Shown: positions 240-19,786 of the stretch, piece by piece
Numbering within the stretch: the stretch's first letter is position 1
Layout of the letters: each line of letters starts with the position of its first letter
Assembly: GCF_013033515.1 (NCBI RefSeq)
Contig: NZ_WQEG01000006.1
Coordinates: 62,001-126,000, forward strand
Length of the DNA: 64,000 bases
Direction: 5' to 3'
DNA from: Ruegeria sp. HKCCA6707
GTDB lineage: Bacteria; Pseudomonadota; Alphaproteobacteria; Rhodobacterales; Rhodobacteraceae
The notes under the pieces: model-generated
The model's database searches: none
What the model saw: the letters and a program-made list of their open reading frames with translations, nothing else
What the model was told of the DNA's origin: nothing
Program-made: the position numbers and the translations under genes

Positions 240-2153
240 TCAGTCGGCGAAGAAGAATTCGTCCGGCCGGTGGATGCCGAAATGCGCGCCGGGCTCCCAG
301 GCCCACATGGCTTGCTCGGGTACATTGCGCAGGCGGTTCGAAACCACAATCGGCTGCGGTGCGCCGTTCAGAATGCCGATGCCATAAAGCTGGTCGGCAT
401 GAATTTTCAACATCTCGGTCCAGACGGCCTTACGCTCTTCATCCGAGGTCGCGACTTCCCAATCATGCGCAAGCGCCATCAGACGTTCTGCCTCGGGCAT
501 GTCGGGTGCTTCGCCTGCGCTGCCGCCGGTTTGATAGAACTGACCCCATTTCGGCCAGGCGAGAAACACCTGGTCGGTCGGCGCCAGATAGGCCGGTGAT
601 GTGTGCATTTGCGGGATGCCGTCATCCCAGCCGAACCAGACAGAGGCCATTGTGGTGCCCGCAAACACGCGATTGCGAAGGATGTCCCGATCCAGCGGGC
701 GCATGACCAGCTTGACGCCAATGTCGCGCCAATTGTCGGTGACGATCTGCAAAGCGTTTTCAACCTCTTGCCGTTCACCGGCGGTTTCGACGATCAATTC
801 CATCGGGCGGCCATCTGGCAGCAGCCGAATGCCGCTGCCATCACGCTCGGTCAGCCCCGCCTCGTCCAGAAGGGCATTGGCCTGATCCATATCGTACTGT
901 GCCCAGGCCTGCGCATTGGCTTCGTCATAGAAGGGCGAAGCGGGCAAAACAGACATCGCACCCGGTTTTGCCAGCTTGAAATACAGCGCCTGATTGATCG
1001 TCTTGCGATCGATTGCAAGCGACAGGGCTCGGCGCACACGCACGTCACGCAGCACGTCGCGCCAGACCTCATCTTCATAGTTCAGGTTCGGATAGATCGC
1101 GACCTGAGACGCCACACCGGTTTTCCAGAGCAGCGTCTTGTAGTCCCCTTGTGCTTCGCCTTTTTTCAGGATCGAGGCATCCCGGAAAGACAAGCCACGG
1201 CCCTGAAGATCGCTTTCACCAGCGTTGGTCTTGGCGGCCACCAGACCGGGGGCCACAATCTCCATCTCGACCACGTCGATATAGGGCAGTTGAACACCGT
1301 TGGTATCGACTCGGTGGTAGAAGGGATTGCGCACGAAATTATGCCGGATCTTCTTGCCCGAGCTGGCATTCAGCCAAGGCTGCAACGTTGGCAATTCGTG
1401 ATTGTCGAACTTATAGAGGTTATCCAGTTTGTTGTGCAGAGCGGCCCAACTGGTCACACGCGCGTCTTCGACCTCGAACTCTAGATCCTCGGTATTGGCA
1501 TAGTTTTCGTGGTACTTCTTCAGAAACGCCGATGGCCGGTAGATGAAAGGTGGCCGGGCCTGCGCCAGAGATTGCAGGAAGTTCGGGTTTGGATCGTCCC
1601 ACTCGAAAACAACGGTTGTTTCATCGGGGAAGGTGACAGTGGGTGGTTTGCCTTCAACCAGCAGAAAGTCTGGCGGGCCCGAGGGGCTGAGTGCCTCGTG
1701 ATTGGCGACATCTTCCCACCAATAGCGGAAATCTTCAGAGGTAAACGGCGACCCGTCCGACCATTTGTGGCCTTCGCGCAGGTTTAGAGTGAACTTACGA
1801 TTGTTCTCGTTCTCAAACGACTCCAGAATATCTGGTGCCAGTTCATAGTTTTGGTCAAAACCTACAAGCCGCGCATAGCCATAAACGACCATCTGCCGGA
1901 CGTCCTTGTTGCGCGTCACCATCGTGCGCAACGTTCCACCCGGTTTCCCAATCTCGCGCCCTTTTGCCGCCAAGTCTACAATCAGCGGCTCTGCTGGGAT
2001 ACGTTCGGCCACGGGCGGTAGATTGCCAGCGGCGACTTCGCTTTGCCAGAACTGGCTTTCCTGCAGGTCAGGCGGGGTCGCAGCCCAGCCAGGCAATACT
2101 CCGGCCAGGGCCAGGGTCAGGCCCAAAAGTGATGTGCGAGTGGTCTTAAACAT
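240..2153 (-). CDS. ABC transporter substrate-binding protein, family 5
   Basis: Periplasmic solute receptor of the importer encoded on both sides of it. The 637-residue protein starts with a Sec signal peptide (K-T-T-R, then a Leu/Ala-rich core ending near G-W-A-A). The mature part has the family 5 features: a P-G-G-T-L-R entry, D-I-L-E-S-F, and F-T-L-N-L-R-E-G-H-K-W-S-D-G followed by P-F-T-S-E-D-F, the classic SBP_bac_5 signature. It is longer than typical DppA/OppA (about 535-545), closer to the larger variants seen with fused ATPases. Its start overlaps the ATPase stop by 8 bases. Ligands of this family include peptides, opines, glycosides and metal chelates, so the substrate is open. Confidence 0.9.
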   Translation of the reverse strand: MFKTTRTSLLGLTLALAGVLPGWAATPPDLQESQFWQSEVAAGNLPPVAERIPAEPLIVDLAAKGREIGKPGGTLRTMVTRNKDVRQMVVYGYARLVGFDQNYELAPDILESFENENNRKFTLNLREGHKWSDGSPFTSEDFRYWWEDVANHEALSPSGPPDFLLVEGKPPTVTFPDETTVVFEWDDPNPNFLQSLAQARPPFIYRPSAFLKKYHENYANTEDLEFEVEDARVTSWAALHNKLDNLYKFDNHELPTLQPWLNASSGKKIRHNFVRNPFYHRVDTNGVQLPYIDVVEMEIVAPGLVAAKTNAGESDLQGRGLSFRDASILKKGEAQGDYKTLLWKTGVASQVAIYPNLNYEDEVWRDVLRDVRVRRALSLAIDRKTINQALYFKLAKPGAMSVLPASPFYDEANAQAWAQYDMDQANALLDEAGLTERDGSGIRLLPDGRPMELIVETAGERQEVENALQIVTDNWRDIGVKLVMRPLDRDILRNRVFAGTTMASVWFGWDDGIPQMHTSPAYLAPTDQVFLAWPKWGQFYQTGGSAGEAPDMPEAERLMALAHDWEVATSDEERKAVWTEMLKIHADQLYGIGILNGAPQPIVVSNRLRNVPEQAMWAWEPGAHFGIHRPDEFFFAD

Positions 2154-3918
2154 GGCAGCGTACCTTATGACCGGGCTCCAATTCTACCAAAGAAGGTACC
2201 ACGGAGTCCGTGAAACGGAAGGCTTCTTCCCAACTGTCCGGCGAACCCGCCCCCAATGCAACCATTTCCAGGTTGATTGGGCGGTTGATATCGGGTTCTG
2301 GCTGGGCAGCGATCAATGCCTTGGTGTACGGATGACGGGGGTTGTAGAAAAGAGTTTCGGGAGGCGCCTGTTCGACAACCATCCCCCGCCGCATGACCGC
2401 CACTTCGTCAGCGATCCGAGCGACAACCGCAAGATCGTGAGAAATGAACAGGTAGGACAGGTTCAACTCGGTCTGTAGTTTCTCTAGCAGCGTCAGGATC
2501 TGTTCCTGCACCGAGACGTCCAGCGCCGATGTGGGTTCGTCACAAACGATCAGGGTCGGGTCCAGCATCAGCGCGCGGGCGATCGACAAACGCTGTCTTT
2601 GCCCTCCGGAAAACGCATGTGGATAGCGTTTCAACATATCCGGGTTCATACCGACCCAGCGCAACATCTCGGCCGCTTTTTCACGGTGTTCGGCGGCTGA
2701 GCCCAGTCTGTGGATTTCCAGCGGTTCTGTCAGCGCGTCCTGAATACGCATACGAGGGCTGAGCGAGCTGTAGGGGTCTTGAAATACCATTTGCGCTTTG
2801 CGCTGAAACGCGGTGCGCTCGGCTTTGGTCATTTGGTGAACCGTGATCGGCTCGGCTTCGGCGGTTGTTCGGAAAAGAACTTGACCACCGGGATCGGGCA
2901 GCTCTGCCCCAAGTGCGATCCGGGCAGCCGTGGTCTTGCCCGAGCCACTTTCCCCGACGATTGCCAGAGTTTTCCCACGCCCCAACTTAAGATCCACACC
3001 ACGACAGGCATGTATCAACCGGTCTGCTTTCCAGCCCTTCGTTGCACGCATCTGATAGGTTTTGCTGACATCTTTCATTTCGAGGATAAGATCCTCGTGC
3101 GGCATTGGCGTTGCGCCTTCATTGTGTTCCGGAATCTCCGGTGCCGCATCGAAAAGCTGCTTTGTGTAGGGATGCGCGGGATCCGACAGGATCAGCTCGG
3201 CGGGACCGGATTCCATGATCCGGCCCTTGTGCATCACCACGACCTTTTCGGCCATGTTGGCGACAACACCCAGATCGTGGGTCACAAGGATCAACGCCAT
3301 GCCGGTCTCACGCTGCAATTCTTTGATCAGGCCCAGAACCTGAGCTTGCGTCGTGACGTCCAATGCCGTTGTCGGTTCATCCGCAATCAGCAGATCAGGC
3401 TTGGCCACCATCGCCATCGCGATCATAGCACGCTGTCGCATGCCGCCGGATAGCTCAAACGGGTAAGAGTCATAGGCACGCTCGGGATCGGGAAACCCAA
3501 CCCGTTCAAACTGAGTCAGAACCTTTTTGCGGGCTTCGGCTTCGGATATTTTTCCGTGCAGCCAAAGCACTTCGCTTACCTGATTGCCGATCTTGTGCAG
3601 GGGCGAAAGCGAGCGCATGGGCTCCTGAAAGATCATTGATACGCGATTGCCTCGAATATCGCGCATCTCGCGTTCACTGATCTTTGTCAAATCCGCTTGC
3701 CCATAAGAGTCATTCAGCGTAATCGACCCGGACCGGATCTGGGCAGTACGTGGCAGAATACGCAACGCCGCACGGCACGAGATGGTCTTCCCCGAGCCGG
3801 ATTCACCAACCAAAGCAAGCGTTTGGCCGGGGTCCACTTCAAAACTGACATCTTGGACAACATCAGCGCCCGCGCCGAACCCGATGCTCAGGTTCTTTAC
3901 GGACAGCAATGCCGTCAT
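2146..3918 (-). CDS. ABC transporter ATP-binding protein, duplicated (OppD-OppF fusion type)
   Basis: Cytoplasmic ATPase that powers the importer. The single 590-residue chain holds two complete nucleotide-binding domains. The first has Walker A G-E-S-G-S-G-K-T at residues 38-45, signature L-S-G-G-M-R-Q-R and Walker B L-L-I-A-D-E-P. The second has Walker A G-E-S-G-S-G-K-T, signature F-S-G-G-Q-R-Q-R and Walker B L-I-V-C-D-E-P. Each half ends in an oligopeptide-type C-terminal extension (H-P-Y-T-K-Q-L and H-P-Y-T-K-A-L). Such fused OppD-OppF proteins, like YejF and GsiA, usually work with one receptor and two permeases. It is the first gene of the leftward operon; the gap to the rightward gene at 4148 carries a palindrome. 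Confidence 0.93.
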
Positions 3919-4105
3919 GCGGGCGTCCCACCCGTTTGGCCGTGTTTTCCCATCGGCTGATTGTTCTCCCTGACTTTTTTCACCAGTTTCGCGCGGTTAG
4001 GGCAGACTAGTCAAACACCTTCTTTAGCAGAATTGTCGCGGTTTCGTGAAATCAAGGCAGATTGCCTACACAAGTTGTTTATTTTTTGCCATCTAGGCGC
4101 AGTCT

Positions 4106-4122
4106 GACACCAAATTGGTGTC
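4106..4122. promoter_or_regulatory. 17-bp perfect palindrome, likely operator
   Basis: GACACCAAATTGGTGTC is an 8-bp perfect inverted repeat around one central base. It lies 25 bases before the GTG of the rightward methyltransferase and about 190 bases before the leftward ABC importer operon, in their shared 229-base gap. This is the length and symmetry expected for a dimeric repressor site. The regulator is unknown and none is encoded beside it. The rest of the gap shows only AT-rich stretches. Confidence 0.5.
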
Positions 4123-4147
4123 GGTTACTCAAGCAAGAGGGTTATTC

Positions 4148-4645
4148 GTGTCCGATCATCAAAGCCGCCTTGATCTTTTTATCGACCGTATGGTGTCGCA
4201 ACGCGCGTGTCTTGATTTTGCGATTGCTCAGACTGCGAACATGACGGGTCCGGTCTTCGAGCTGGGATTGGGGAACGGGCGCACCTATCATCACATGGTT
4301 CGCCACATTCAAGGACGGCCGATCTATGTGTTCGAGCGTGCTGTAGCTTCACATCCTGATTCGACACCACCCGAGGATCTGGTGATCCTTGGTGACGTAC
4401 GCGACACGCTGCCAGCGTCTGTTGCGCGTTTCGGCGCGTCGGCCAGTTTGATCCACGCGGATTTGGGTGGGCATAACCGGGAAAAGAACGACAAGTTCGC
4501 GCGGTTTGTCTCACCCCTGATCGAGCCGTTGCTGGCGCCTGGTGGGATGATGGTGTCCAGCGACCGGATGTATTTCGATGGCCTGACCGAGCTGCCTCTG
4601 CCGCAAGGTGCAGTCGAAGGACGTTGCTTTGTCTATCAGCGTTGA
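4148..4645 (+). CDS. Small class I SAM-dependent methyltransferase
   Basis: Predicted cytoplasmic methyltransferase of 165 residues, substrate unknown. The nucleotide-binding motif I is V-F-E-L-G-L-G-N-G-R-T near residue 36, followed by the acidic strand end Y-V-F-E-R and a later L-I-H-A-D-L-G-G segment where motif IV sits. It ends in a short G-R-C-F-V-Y strand. I chose GTG at 4148 because AGAGGG sits 6 bases before it; an in-frame GTG at 4115 would add 11 residues without a clear ribosome site and would run into the palindrome at 4106-4122. The gene stands alone between the ABC operon and the GST gene, 75 bases ahead of the latter. Confidence 0.7.
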   Translation: MSDHQSRLDLFIDRMVSQRACLDFAIAQTANMTGPVFELGLGNGRTYHHMVRHIQGRPIYVFERAVASHPDSTPPEDLVILGDVRDTLPASVARFGASASLIHADLGGHNREKNDKFARFVSPLIEPLLAPGGMMVSSDRMYFDGLTELPLPQGAVEGRCFVYQR

Positions 4646-16576: not shown

Positions 16577-16777
16577 ACGGATCCTCCCAATGTCATCCCG
16601 ACTCGAAGACTAGGGCGGAATGAACAGATGCGCAAATGAACTTGTTCACACGGGCAAAAATGGAGTTGTTATGCGTTTTTATTTGCGTCGCGCGATACGA
16701 TTACGATAGATTCGAACTGTTGTATTCGCGTCGAAATCAGTGAGTTATACGACGAAGCAATTGCAGGGGCCGGCGCC

Positions 16778-19700
16778 ATAGAACGCACGATCTTTCGGTT
16801 CATCTGGAAATACTCGAAGCGCGACCAGCTTATTCTTCTGGCCGTCACGTCGACGCTGTTTCCGTTGCTTTACCTGACGCTTGAGCTGCCCAAGCGGATC
16901 ATCAACGACGCCATCGGTGCGTCCAGTTCGATCGTCAACGTTTGGGGCTATAGCCTGCCACAGACCACCTTTCTGGTGATCCTGTGCTTTGCCTTTCTGC
17001 TGGCTGTTCTTGCCCACGGCATCATGAAGATGCGCATCAACACCATGAAAGGGGTGTTGAGCGAACGTATGCTGCGCCGGTTTCGGTATCAGTTGACCAG
17101 CCGCGCCTTGCGATTTCCGCAGCCCTATTTTGAACGGGTCAGCCAGGGCGAAATGGTGTCGATGATCACCGCCGAAAGTGAACCGATGGGCGGGTTGATG
17201 GGCGACGCGATCAGCCAGCCGGTGCTGCAAGCTGGGCAGATGATCACGATCCTGTCCTTTCTGTTCTTGCAAAGCTTCTGGTTCGGATTGGCTGCGGTTG
17301 CGCTGATCCCGCTGCAAGCCTGGCTGATCCCCAAGCTGCAACGACAGATCAACCTGCTCAACAAGAAGCGCATTCAGGAAGTGCGTGTTCTGGCTGCGCA
17401 GATCGGTGAGAACGCCGCAGGCGCCGCGACCTTGCGGGCCAATGGCGGCTGGCGTTATCGCCGCGCCATGATCTCGGATCAGCTGGGGCGTCTGTTCGCC
17501 ATCCGGTTCGAGATCTACCAGAAAAAGTTCTTTATGAAGTTCATCAACAACTTCATCTCGCAACTGACACCTTTCATGTTTTATCTGGTTGGCGGTCTGC
17601 TGGTGCTGCAGGGCTCGGTTTCGCTGGGTGCGCTTGTGGCTGCGCTGGCGGCCTACAAGGATCTCAGCTCACCGTGGAAAGAGCTGTTGGCCTATTACAA
17701 CCAGACACAGGATATGGCGCTGCGCTGGGACGTGGTGATCGAGCGGTTTGCGCCCCCTGGTATGCAGGACGAAGCGTTGTTCGAAGGTGAGCCCGAAAGC
17801 CGACCGCATTTGCGGGGGGACATTCATCTCAACAATGTCTCGGTGCGGGACATGGATGGCAATCAGGTCCTCGACGATCTGAACCTGACCTTCCCCGGTG
17901 GCAAGACAATAGGTATCGCTGCGCCCAGCGAGGAAGATCGCCGCGCGGTTGCCGAGCTGCTGACCCGCGAGATTCTGCCGGGGTCTGGCAGTGTAACGAT
18001 CGGTGATGTGAACCTGTCCGGCTTGCATCAGGCTGTGGTCGCAGCCCGCATCGGCTATGCGACATCTCGACCGGTGATGTTTCAGGGTTCATTGGGCGAC
18101 AATGTCATGATGCCTATGCGGTTTCGACCGCAAGACAACACGTCGAACAATCCGGACTTTGCCGAAACTCTGCGTGCAGGCAATAGCAGTGATCCGTTTG
18201 AAGCCGAATGGCTGGATCCGTCGCTGGCCCATGTCGAAACAGAAAAAGAGCTGCGGGATTGGTGGTTGCAGCTGATTGATGGCATGGGGTCGGGGGCGGC
18301 GCTGTTTCAACGCGGTGCCGAACAGATGTTCGACGCCGAAGCGCGCCCCGCATTGGCCCAAAAACTGGTCGAGTTGCGGCCAAAGGTGCAGAGCGCGGTG
18401 CGTGAAGCAGGTTTGGAACAGCAGGCGTTGGTCTTTGACCAGAACACCTATAACTCTGCTTTGCCCGTGGCAGAGAACCTTCTGTTTGCCACACCTCGCG
18501 TTCCGGTCACGCAAGAGATGTTGGCCAAACAAACTGTCTTTTTAGGCCAATTGCGCGAGTTGGGTCTGGATGAAACCCTGATTGATCTGACCCGCGACGT
18601 GATCGAGATGCTTCGTCAGATCTTCGGGTTGGACGGTACAGATCACCCCTTGTTCCGCAAGTTGGGGCTTGAGGCGCAGACATATGAAACTGCCGTGGAC
18701 CTGATTGACCGTACGCGCAACGAAGGTGCTGCGGGTCTCGACAATGAGCAACTGGCGAACCTGTTGGCCGTACCATTTGCGATTTCGGCGGAACAGATTG
18801 GCCCCGCCTTTACGGATGAGTTGAAGACGCGAATTCTTGAATTGCGCGCAAGCCACTCGGAAGAGCTGTTGCAACCGTTGCTGGATGTCTTTGTACCGCT
18901 CGACCCGGAAAAGGCCGCGCCCGGCTTGACCGTGATGGAAAACGCGCTGTTCGGTAAAATCAGTCAGATCGGCGGCTCACGCTCGGACGAGGTGCGCAAA
19001 TTGATTGTGGATGTGTTGTCCGAAAATGGCGCGCGCCCGCTTGTGATCGAGTTGATCTTTGATGTGCCGGTTGCTTTGGGTGGTCAGAACCTGCCAGCCT
19101 TGTTCGCCGAGCCGCTGGCCTTTACCCGTGCGACGATCAAGAAACCCGATATTCTGATCCTCGACAACGCACTGGCCAGCTATGACATGCAGACACAGGT
19201 CGCTGTCTACAAGAACTTGCGCGCTTTGTTGCCCGAAACAACTGTCATATACTTGAACGATCAATTCCAGAATCCTCAGGCATTCGACATGTTTGTCGAA
19301 ATCCGACAGGGTCGTGTTGTGACTGATGAGGGGCCGGGCGACGTGGAGGAAGACAGCGCATCAGCAGCCGATCTGGCGCGTAAGCTACGCGCGTTGGAGC
19401 AAACGCCTCTGTTTTCGAGCCTTGATCGCAGGCAGCTGCGGCTGCTTGCCTTTGGCGCGCAATGGTTCAACGCCAAGGCCGGAGAGGTGGTGTTTCTTAA
19501 GGATGATCAACCCACCGACGGTGCCTATGTCGTTCTGGAAGGCGAAGCAGGGCTATACCTGCCGCAACCGGACGGGCCGGATCAGTTGATCATGACTGCG
19601 GATGTCGGGTCTTTGGTCGGTGAACTGGGCCTTATCCGCAAAGAGCCGCGCGCGCTGAGCATGATCGCCGAAACCGATTTGTCCTGCCTGCGGATCGGGG

Positions 19701-19786
19701 AAGAGGAATTCATGGCCGTGGTCGAAAACGACTCAGCGACAGCCTTCAAACTGCTGCAGGTCATTGCGGGCTATGTTTCGAATTGA
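16778..19786 (+). CDS. ABC-exporter-like fusion with degenerate nucleotide-binding domain and C-terminal cyclic-nucleotide-binding domain
   Basis: Predicted membrane protein of about 1000 residues. The N-terminal third is a type I ABC transmembrane domain. An ABC-like domain follows (about 17800-19330) but is degenerate. The Walker A site (17900-17945) reads G-G-K-T-I-G-I-A-A-P-S-E-E-D with no G-x-G-K-S/T. No LSGGQ is present; the residues before the Walker B-like I-L-I-L-D-N-A (about 19150) are L-A-F-T-R-A. The H-loop position reads Y-L-N-D-Q. About 300 residues are inserted and hold E-N-L-L-F and E-N-A-L-F elements. Bases 19390-19783 encode a CRP-like cyclic-nucleotide domain with G-E-L-G-L-I and P-R-A-L-S. 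No ATG, GTG or TTG is in frame between the stop at 16637 and TTG 16865, yet the E-R-T-I-F-R-F-I-W-K-Y-S-K-R start I expect begins at the ATA at 16778. Conservative start: 16865, 973 residues. Confidence 0.75.
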   Translation: MERTIFRFIWKYSKRDQLILLAVTSTLFPLLYLTLELPKRIINDAIGASSSIVNVWGYSLPQTTFLVILCFAFLLAVLAHGIMKMRINTMKGVLSERMLRRFRYQLTSRALRFPQPYFERVSQGEMVSMITAESEPMGGLMGDAISQPVLQAGQMITILSFLFLQSFWFGLAAVALIPLQAWLIPKLQRQINLLNKKRIQEVRVLAAQIGENAAGAATLRANGGWRYRRAMISDQLGRLFAIRFEIYQKKFFMKFINNFISQLTPFMFYLVGGLLVLQGSVSLGALVAALAAYKDLSSPWKELLAYYNQTQDMALRWDVVIERFAPPGMQDEALFEGEPESRPHLRGDIHLNNVSVRDMDGNQVLDDLNLTFPGGKTIGIAAPSEEDRRAVAELLTREILPGSGSVTIGDVNLSGLHQAVVAARIGYATSRPVMFQGSLGDNVMMPMRFRPQDNTSNNPDFAETLRAGNSSDPFEAEWLDPSLAHVETEKELRDWWLQLIDGMGSGAALFQRGAEQMFDAEARPALAQKLVELRPKVQSAVREAGLEQQALVFDQNTYNSALPVAENLLFATPRVPVTQEMLAKQTVFLGQLRELGLDETLIDLTRDVIEMLRQIFGLDGTDHPLFRKLGLEAQTYETAVDLIDRTRNEGAAGLDNEQLANLLAVPFAISAEQIGPAFTDELKTRILELRASHSEELLQPLLDVFVPLDPEKAAPGLTVMENALFGKISQIGGSRSDEVRKLIVDVLSENGARPLVIELIFDVPVALGGQNLPALFAEPLAFTRATIKKPDILILDNALASYDMQTQVAVYKNLRALLPETTVIYLNDQFQNPQAFDMFVEIRQGRVVTDEGPGDVEEDSASAADLARKLRALEQTPLFSSLDRRQLRLLAFGAQWFNAKAGEVVFLKDDQPTDGAYVVLEGEAGLYLPQPDGPDQLIMTADVGSLVGELGLIRKEPRALSMIAETDLSCLRIGEEEFMAVVENDSATAFKLLQVIAGYVSN

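Follow-up and report, generated by a model that had tools for sequence, protein, structure and literature searches.

What does an ABC exporter do once its ATPase site is gone? The question is raised by one gene in a 64,000-nucleotide stretch of the genome of Ruegeria sp. HKCCA6707 (contig NZ_WQEG01000006.1, positions 62,001 to 126,000 of the forward strand; this whole stretch is called the window below). The gene, here called pseudo-ABC, encodes an exporter membrane domain, a degenerate nucleotide-binding domain (NBD) interrupted by a helical insert, and a C-terminal cyclic-nucleotide-binding (cNMP) domain. Judged from its sequence, the window protein very probably does not hydrolyse ATP, and loss of the ATPase site is supported as a conserved state and not the decay of one copy. 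The features concerned are as follows.

16778..19786, plus strand: complete pseudo-ABC gene, encoding an exporter with a cNMP-binding domain at the C-terminus (1002 amino acids plus stop; frame open throughout)
16790..17746, plus strand: type IV ABC exporter membrane domain (PF00664; model helices at residues 5-323)
17813..18118, plus strand: degenerate NBD, N-terminal part (NBD fold match to 3vx4_A)
17921..17944, plus strand: ruined Walker A, A-P-S-E-E-D-R-R instead of G-x-x-G-x-G-K-S/T (alignment with ordinary exporters)
19088..19114, plus strand: signature remnant, NLPALFAEP instead of xLSGGQRQR (same alignment)
19145..19186, plus strand: Walker B/D-loop remnant PDILILDNALASYD, catalytic Glu replaced by Asn (same alignment)
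19238..19267, plus strand: H-loop remnant TTVIYLNDQF, His replaced by Asp (same alignment)

A Pfam search of the window protein matched ABC_membrane (PF00664, E 2.5e-16) and PF00027 (E 4.7e-15; 55.8 bits against a cut-off of 27.5), bearing out the N-terminal exporter membrane domain and the closing CRP-like domain named in a preliminary description made from the letters alone. No Pfam model matched the NBD in this search, the domain being too eroded; NCBIfam exporter models matched in two separate stretches flanking the insert. An AlphaFold2 model of the protein (mean pLDDT, 82.8), the full-chain prediction that the same description had proposed, gave an ABC exporter fold, matching PCAT1 (9azl_A; Z 25.3, root-mean-square deviation [rmsd] 4.2 over 449 residues). 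The model NBD matched that of ComA (3vx4_A; Z 24.5, rmsd 2.1, 239/239 residues, the model range spanning the insert), and other structural matches were TmrAB, TM287/288, and SUR2. Confidence was mostly at pLDDT 80-98 in the NBD and insert and at 80-95 in the membrane domain, with two weak stretches; the cNMP part was poor (block pLDDT 37-66; 18 cNMP alignment rows misplaced) and was not used. By the Pfam match and this model, the window protein belongs to the type IV ABC exporters in both ancestry and structure, with membrane domain and NBD in one chain. It resembles MsbA, PCAT1, ComA, and TmrAB in the membrane domain and NBD fold and differs from them in having no ATPase motifs, in carrying an insert of about 250 residues in the helical subdomain, and in conserving the membrane domain, not the NBD. 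CFTR and SUR likewise put the exporter fold to non-pump use; both still bind nucleotide.

Aligned with eight ordinary ABC exporters taken from the same class, the window protein has Arg in place of both the Walker A Lys and the Walker A Ser/Thr, LPALF in place of LSGGQ, Asn in place of the catalytic Glu, and Asp in place of the H-loop His. The Walker B Asp is the sole residue retained, and the window clade is also without the Walker A glycines and the Q-loop Gln. The preliminary description was thus correct that the Walker A Lys, LSGGQ, and the H-loop His are missing, and the catalytic Glu is gone as well. Arg occupies the Walker A Lys position in all 47 orthologs. A motif table was compiled for the query and 172 different proteins of at least 780 residues (173 members: 47 orthologs including the window's, 22 of the paralog set, 104 distant), and the combination of Walker A Lys and Ser/Thr, Walker B Asp, catalytic Glu, and H-loop His was found in 0/173 members versus 8/8 controls. 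Taken separately, the Walker A Lys was retained in 65 members and Ser/Thr in 19, with 5 having the two together; the Walker B Asp was retained in 45, Glu in 60, and His in 44. The signature Gln was present in 7/8 controls, the remaining one having LSGGE. This supports the earlier view that the protein is not an ordinary ATP-driven pump. Homologues of the same architecture with an intact Walker A and signature, which would have marked this copy as simply decayed, were looked for, and none of the 173 holds the whole catalytic set.

The decay is graded, distant members typically reading GPxGSGK[D/E] ... LSxAQRQK ... [N/S]E. In these the Walker A Ser/Thr is Asp or Glu in 81/104 and the Walker B Asp is Asn in 63/104, and the two changes occur together in 49/104 (e.g., L055, L058, L063), which resembles a swapped metal site. 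Such a site, an acidic Walker A (GK[DE]) facing a Walker B Asn, might still hydrolyse nucleotide as a non-standard ATPase in distant members, a reading that the frequency of the pair favours and that we regard as quite improbable. The window clade has additionally lost the Lys, the Walker A glycines, the Q-loop Gln, the signature, the Glu, and the His, so a swapped metal site cannot explain the window protein.

All 25 genomes searched in the genus, the window genome included, have both an ortholog (80-100% identity) and a paralog (51-53%), neither of them interrupted by a stop. At E 1e-60, with partial matches included, the family was matched in 42/149 genomes of the order and 129/385 sampled genomes of the class; 252 plasmid records matched with at least 80% query coverage, and some matching loci are titled as gammaproteobacterial metagenome-assembled genomes. 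Among same-genus orthologs the ratio of nonsynonymous to synonymous polymorphism (pN/pS) was 0.07 in the membrane domain, 0.19 in the N-terminal part of the NBD, 0.17 in the insert, 0.12 in the C-terminal part of the NBD, and 0.09 in the cNMP domain. The membrane domain has a mean identity of 50% to 104 distant homologs versus 16.5% to the eight ordinary exporters, and it holds most of the family's invariant columns; NBD identity is 26-27% to distant members versus 24.5-26% to ordinary exporters. In ABC exporters the pattern is usually the reverse, the NBD being the conserved part. By these measures, pseudo-ABC is under strong purifying selection, and it is the membrane domain that selection holds. 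A decaying pseudogene, as the missing catalytic motifs might suggest, is therefore exceedingly improbable: the frame is open in all 25 genomes of the genus, in two copies each, and no domain has a pN/pS near 1, the values all being far lower. The same evidence led us to reject the idea that one copy alone has decayed.

Where translation of this gene begins is less plain from standard annotation, and two further features are needed.

16778..16780, plus strand: ATA, read as initiation codon (the aligned codon in paralogs and distant homologs is that of Met1, ATG/GTG)
16765..16770, plus strand: AGGGGC box, read as ribosome-binding site (8-13 nt before ATA; conserved in orthologs)

The sequence comparison indicates that the AUA at 16778 is very probably the translation start of the window gene. 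No in-frame ATG, GTG, or TTG occurs in the 46 open codons before 16778 or in the 28 after it, so open reading frame finders begin at TTG 16865. Orthologs were defined as fetched loci with at least 55% identity, which gave 47 (the window's own included) plus 9 further ones, one of them at 54%; pN/pS, the Ile background, and the tree were drawn from the 47 or subsets, two Tritonibacter plasmid copies stand outside the start-codon set, and the start of one locus (L234) was read by eye. In the 56 orthologs read, the start position is ATA in 38 and ATC in 18, never ATG, GTG, or TTG. The aligned start is ATG in 22/22 paralogs; 111 distant rows (not deduplicated, including the copper-operon paralogs L159 and L160 described below; L161 dropped as unaligned) have ATG in 91, GTG in 7, and TTG in 1, and a further 12 with CTC or CTG at that position all have an upstream in-frame ATG, GTG, or TTG. 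The AGGGGC box positions are 0.96-1.00 conserved in 25 same-genus orthologs, compared with 0.36-0.84 for bases -45 to -17.

The true start might instead be a downstream TTG or GTG or an upstream canonical codon, the ATA being an ordinary Ile codon. In favour of this, 22/56 orthologs have an ATG, GTG, or TTG between the upstream in-frame stop and the ATA or ATC, in a few cases just 2-5 codons away, and in RefSeq the Ruegeria TM1040 ortholog begins 17 codons further on, at a TTG. No such upstream candidate is present in the other 34, and the position of the downstream candidates varies from gene to gene. Selection on the protein is strong over codons 2-17 (pN/pS 0.056 in 25 same-genus copies and 0.14 in 47 orthologs) and is not seen in the 20 upstream codons (0.93-0.95). 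Among the remaining Ile codons of 47 orthologs, ATA accounts for 3.8%, compared with 38/56 at this position. Another start is accordingly a very improbable alternative to the AUA.

The change of start type happened once on a 76-row tree (35/47 orthologs, all 22 of the paralog set, and 19 distant rows; quick search, no mixture model; ortholog clade supported at 87, with long-branch warnings). Among roseobacters, the N-termini of 486 R. pomeroyi proteins correspond to ATG in 94%, GTG in 5%, and TTG in 1% (PMC3305630), so that non-canonical starts are rare in this group. In the genus of the window, infC also appears to start with ATA, in 25/25 genomes, a reading based on an open frame without ATG, GTG, or TTG before the ATA in one copy and on the usual N-terminus of the protein. 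Because the AUA start is common to infC, low and IF3-sensitive expression can be proposed for pseudo-ABC; that IF3 controls its translation would, by this analogy, be an even bet. According to PMC13009471, Staphylococcus aureus infC and ccpN use AUA, non-canonical starts give roughly 10-30% of AUG output, and the AUA start of ccpN is conserved between S. aureus and B. subtilis and is Shine-Dalgarno supported. Pseudo-ABC is like these genes in its conserved AUA start and unlike them in encoding a membrane protein of Rhodobacteraceae, where theirs are a translation factor and a repressor, and in its less canonical ribosome-binding box. It would offer a second gene beside infC for studying IF3-dependent initiation in alphaproteobacteria, and it illustrates that a gene with a non-AUG start may be annotated automatically without its first helix.

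Three more features bear on the region between the Q-loop and the signature.

18140..18892, plus strand: conserved helical insert, Q-loop region to signature region (about 250 residues, roughly residues 455-705)
18425..18487, plus strand: ENxLF second copy ALVFDQNTYNSALPVAENLLF (homologous to third copy, hhalign)
18887..18952, plus strand: ENxLF third copy VFVPLDPEKAAPGLTVMENALF, where the canonical NBD resumes (alignment and hhalign)

An insert had been recognized in the preliminary description at a length of some 300 residues; the insert is real and its length is about 250. Of the three ENxLF positions described there, those at 18470 and 18935 hold, and the first, near 18090, is an ordinary stretch after the Q-loop. 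The suggested duplication within the ABC core likewise stands in part: copies 2 and 3 are homologous in profile comparison (hhalign probability 98.2, E 3e-13), and the match between copies 1 and 3 (probability 10.5) is merely suggestive. The homologue search proposed at the time found both the Walker A loss and the insert to recur, the insert being present in all 25 aligned members and in 63 rows of another alignment, with the recurring motifs GLRGxIDP, VEPFDxxRYNxNATLAENLLFGTP, and LPFKLIPARHRLGLID. Modelled alone, the insert reached pLDDT 87.8. It matched no solved fold in the PDB (Foldseek best E 1.8, none at 0.001 or better; VIA best Z 3.2), and the missing match is no proof of a new fold. 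A HAD-like domain in the insert was rejected (Pfam E 0.11, not significant).

The chain ends in the following domain.

19472..19732, plus strand: cNMP-binding (CRP-like) domain (PF00027; motif GELGLIRKEPRAL at 19619-19657)

GELGLIRKEPRAL fits the pattern G-E ... R-x-A of the phosphate-binding cassette. The motif pattern, scored as G-E...P-R, is present in 43/47 orthologs and in 32/34 separate neighbour cNMP genes. The cNMP domain is fused in the window clade; many distant members instead encode it immediately downstream as its own gene of about 150 codons, an arrangement seen at no fewer than 31/76 loci; this count is a lower bound since neighbour gene calls are crude and sometimes on the wrong strand. 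Occurrence as a fused domain or a neighbouring gene supports a functional tie and specifies neither gate nor ligand; the sensor or cyclic-nucleotide-gated channel put forward in the preliminary description is a possible but conjectural role of the window protein. A CRP-like regulatory domain on an ABC exporter is also known from HetC, a peptidase-type exporter whose N-terminal cNMP domain is required in vivo and was shown in vitro to bind ppGpp (PMC10986499). HetC differs in needing its ATPase residue and in having a peptidase domain (PMC10986499); the cNMP domain of pseudo-ABC is C-terminal or a separate gene.

Gene neighbourhoods were read at named loci, the best 80 of at least 572 confirmed. 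The pseudo-ABC relatives belong with a gene set of glycosyltransferases, methyltransferases, and a YejF-like importer. A glycosyltransferase lies at most 4 kb upstream of pseudo-ABC in 60 of the 69 named loci whose upstream flank extends 3 kb or more. Its partners at these loci repeatedly include a GT28/MurG-like transferase, GT4 transferases, a histidine phosphatase, a PF12692 methyltransferase, an Opp/Yej-type importer, and a putatively deacetylase-like protein with weak, below-cut-off similarity to DUF2334 (the copy in the window genome had no Pfam match). In one Rhizobium and one Sinorhizobium record, pseudo-ABC and the cNMP gene stand in a single row with the importer genes and three glycosyltransferases. 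Across 385 genomes, the GT28-like gene and pseudo-ABC co-occurred in 123, with 6 and 4 genomes holding one only and 252 neither (Fisher 2e-87; cut-offs E 1e-60 for pseudo-ABC, partial matches included, and E 1e-30 for the glycosyltransferase). On the contig of the window, this gene set begins about 13 kb before the window and runs into it, where three members were located.

240..2153, minus strand: peptide-type solute-binding protein (family 5; PF00496, E 2e-56), a conserved neighbour family of distant pseudo-ABC genes
2146..3918, minus strand: double ATPase of a YejF/Opp-type importer (best NCBIfam model by E-value YejF, 526.8 bits, under the 834 cut-off), a conserved neighbour
4115..4645, plus strand: S-adenosylmethionine methyltransferase PF12692 (E 1.9e-68); the same family follows pseudo-ABC and cNMP genes in distant loci

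As an observation on the set itself, positions 240-4645 together with about 49-62 kb of the same contig (G000:C27; locus L182) hold two GT28-like and two GT4 glycosyltransferases, the histidine phosphatase, the deacetylase-like protein, PF12692 methyltransferases, and the Yej-like importer. An exporter fold alongside glycosyltransferases recalls PglK, a flippase for lipid-linked oligosaccharide; NCBIfam NF050066 gave the window protein a weak match. PglK uses ATP, and in this pseudo-ABC would differ.

The neighbourhoods also bear on whether the protein is still driven by ATP, as the degenerate half of a heterodimer whose active half-transporter is encoded elsewhere. TmrAB and TM287/288, both heterodimeric exporters with one degenerate site, were among the structural matches. 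Against a heterodimer, the window protein is without the signature needed to complete its partner's site, and the neighbouring ATPase gene that recurs encodes an Opp/Yej-type importer subunit; none of the 16 most frequent neighbour clusters at the best 80 loci was an active exporter half, rarer neighbours there not all being annotated. We consider the heterodimer improbable.

A separate paralog branch has no NBD at all. Its members are about 40% identical to the membrane domain of pseudo-ABC and have one extra N-terminal hydrophobic stretch (two translated). They occur in copper-resistance operons in 6/6 plasmid loci examined, with a copper or multicopper oxidase in 6/6 and TolC in 5/6; the absence of the NBD was judged by translation in two and from gene length in the other four. 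The copies (L159:11686-12990, L160:9665-10903, and L222-L225) lie on roseobacter plasmids, some of them conjugative, and that of L225 is annotated as an ATP-binding protein despite having only 400 codons. These copies are evidence from nature for a role of the membrane domain that needs no ATPase in the same chain. Neither this branch nor the non-AUG start at 16778 nor the glycosyltransferase cluster partly in the window had figured in the preliminary description.

For the membrane domain working alone, that of LmrA without its NBD is reportedly one precedent for proton-coupled transport. MsbA offers another, since proton-coupled efflux still occurs without the NBD (PMC4979069). The MsbA and LmrA truncations were engineered; the loss of NBD function in pseudo-ABC is natural and conserved. 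With a dead-NBD family and an NBD-less copper branch, nature appears to have run the ATP-free exporter experiment twice, and natural cases would make directly testable a question for which the evidence in the papers considered here comes from truncated MsbA and LmrA.

Taken together, pseudo-ABC may serve a glycan pathway as a scaffold or as a translocator that needs no ATP, with a nucleotide-type ligand as its gate and a weak start codon holding its amount down, a picture drawn from sequence comparison that we hold to be about evenly balanced between right and wrong. In it, the membrane domain would work without ATP hydrolysis, either exchanging substrate for protons or acting as a facilitated flippase on a glycan-type product that the cluster makes. 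Together with the insert, the dead NBD would form a platform for docking or regulation. The CRP-like domain, which is part of the chain here and a separate neighbour protein elsewhere, would set the activity by binding a nucleotide-type ligand, and the AUA start would keep expression low and IF3-sensitive.

Several observations weigh against parts of this picture. Distant members (n = 104) often retain single motifs (Lys in 65, signature Gln in 100, Glu in 60, His in 44), so nucleotide binding may persist there. The paralog in the same genomes has mostly lost the cNMP motif, which the pattern applied finds in 1/22, and ligand binding is hence not general. The Fisher value given above ignores shared ancestry and counts partial pseudo-ABC matches. 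On the contig of the window, pseudo-ABC lies 12 kb from the gene set, and no glycosyltransferase was found within 12 kb of the Ruegeria paralog at the one locus read, which makes the glycan link weaker for the window gene itself. A strict Shine-Dalgarno scan (at least 4 bases complementary to the 16S tail) scores in 29/47 orthologs and not in the window (elsewhere in 16/22 paralogs and 35/111 distant rows); the AGGGGC box is not a textbook Shine-Dalgarno sequence.

The protein might also move nothing, serving as a membrane scaffold or receptor that anchors glycosyltransferases and uses the cNMP domain to signal the presence of a nucleotide ligand. A lost ATP site, a large conserved helical insert without a PDB match, a cNMP partner, and adjoining glycosyltransferases would all suit that role. 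The membrane domain is the most constrained part, with most of the family's invariant columns, and it occurs alone in copper operons; both facts point to work in the membrane, and we judge a scaffold that transports nothing rather unlikely. In its most far-reaching form, the translocator view would have a natural exporter family that gave up ATP, with a membrane domain that translocates by secondary-active or facilitated means, in copper operons even without an NBD. The dead NBD would have turned into a regulatory platform whose helical fold is new and which has a nucleotide-binding partner, and synthesis in Rhodobacteraceae would have come under IF3 through a conserved AUA or AUC start of the kind that infC has. 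This full version is tentative and on balance doubtful.

An anti-phage defence role was rejected, as no PADLOC model matched. A literature search, which covered sources outside subscription journals, found no publication describing the pseudo-ABC family. Published Sinorhizobium gene numbers (SMb20813, called an msbA homolog, and SMb20804/05, affecting capsular KPS) were considered for the homologous genes and were not used, the mapping being unproven. In Sinorhizobium meliloti 1021 pSymB, the pseudo-ABC frame (L161, 11022-13307) is without about the first 84 aligned residues held by strain R28 (L157), as if its 5' end were broken.

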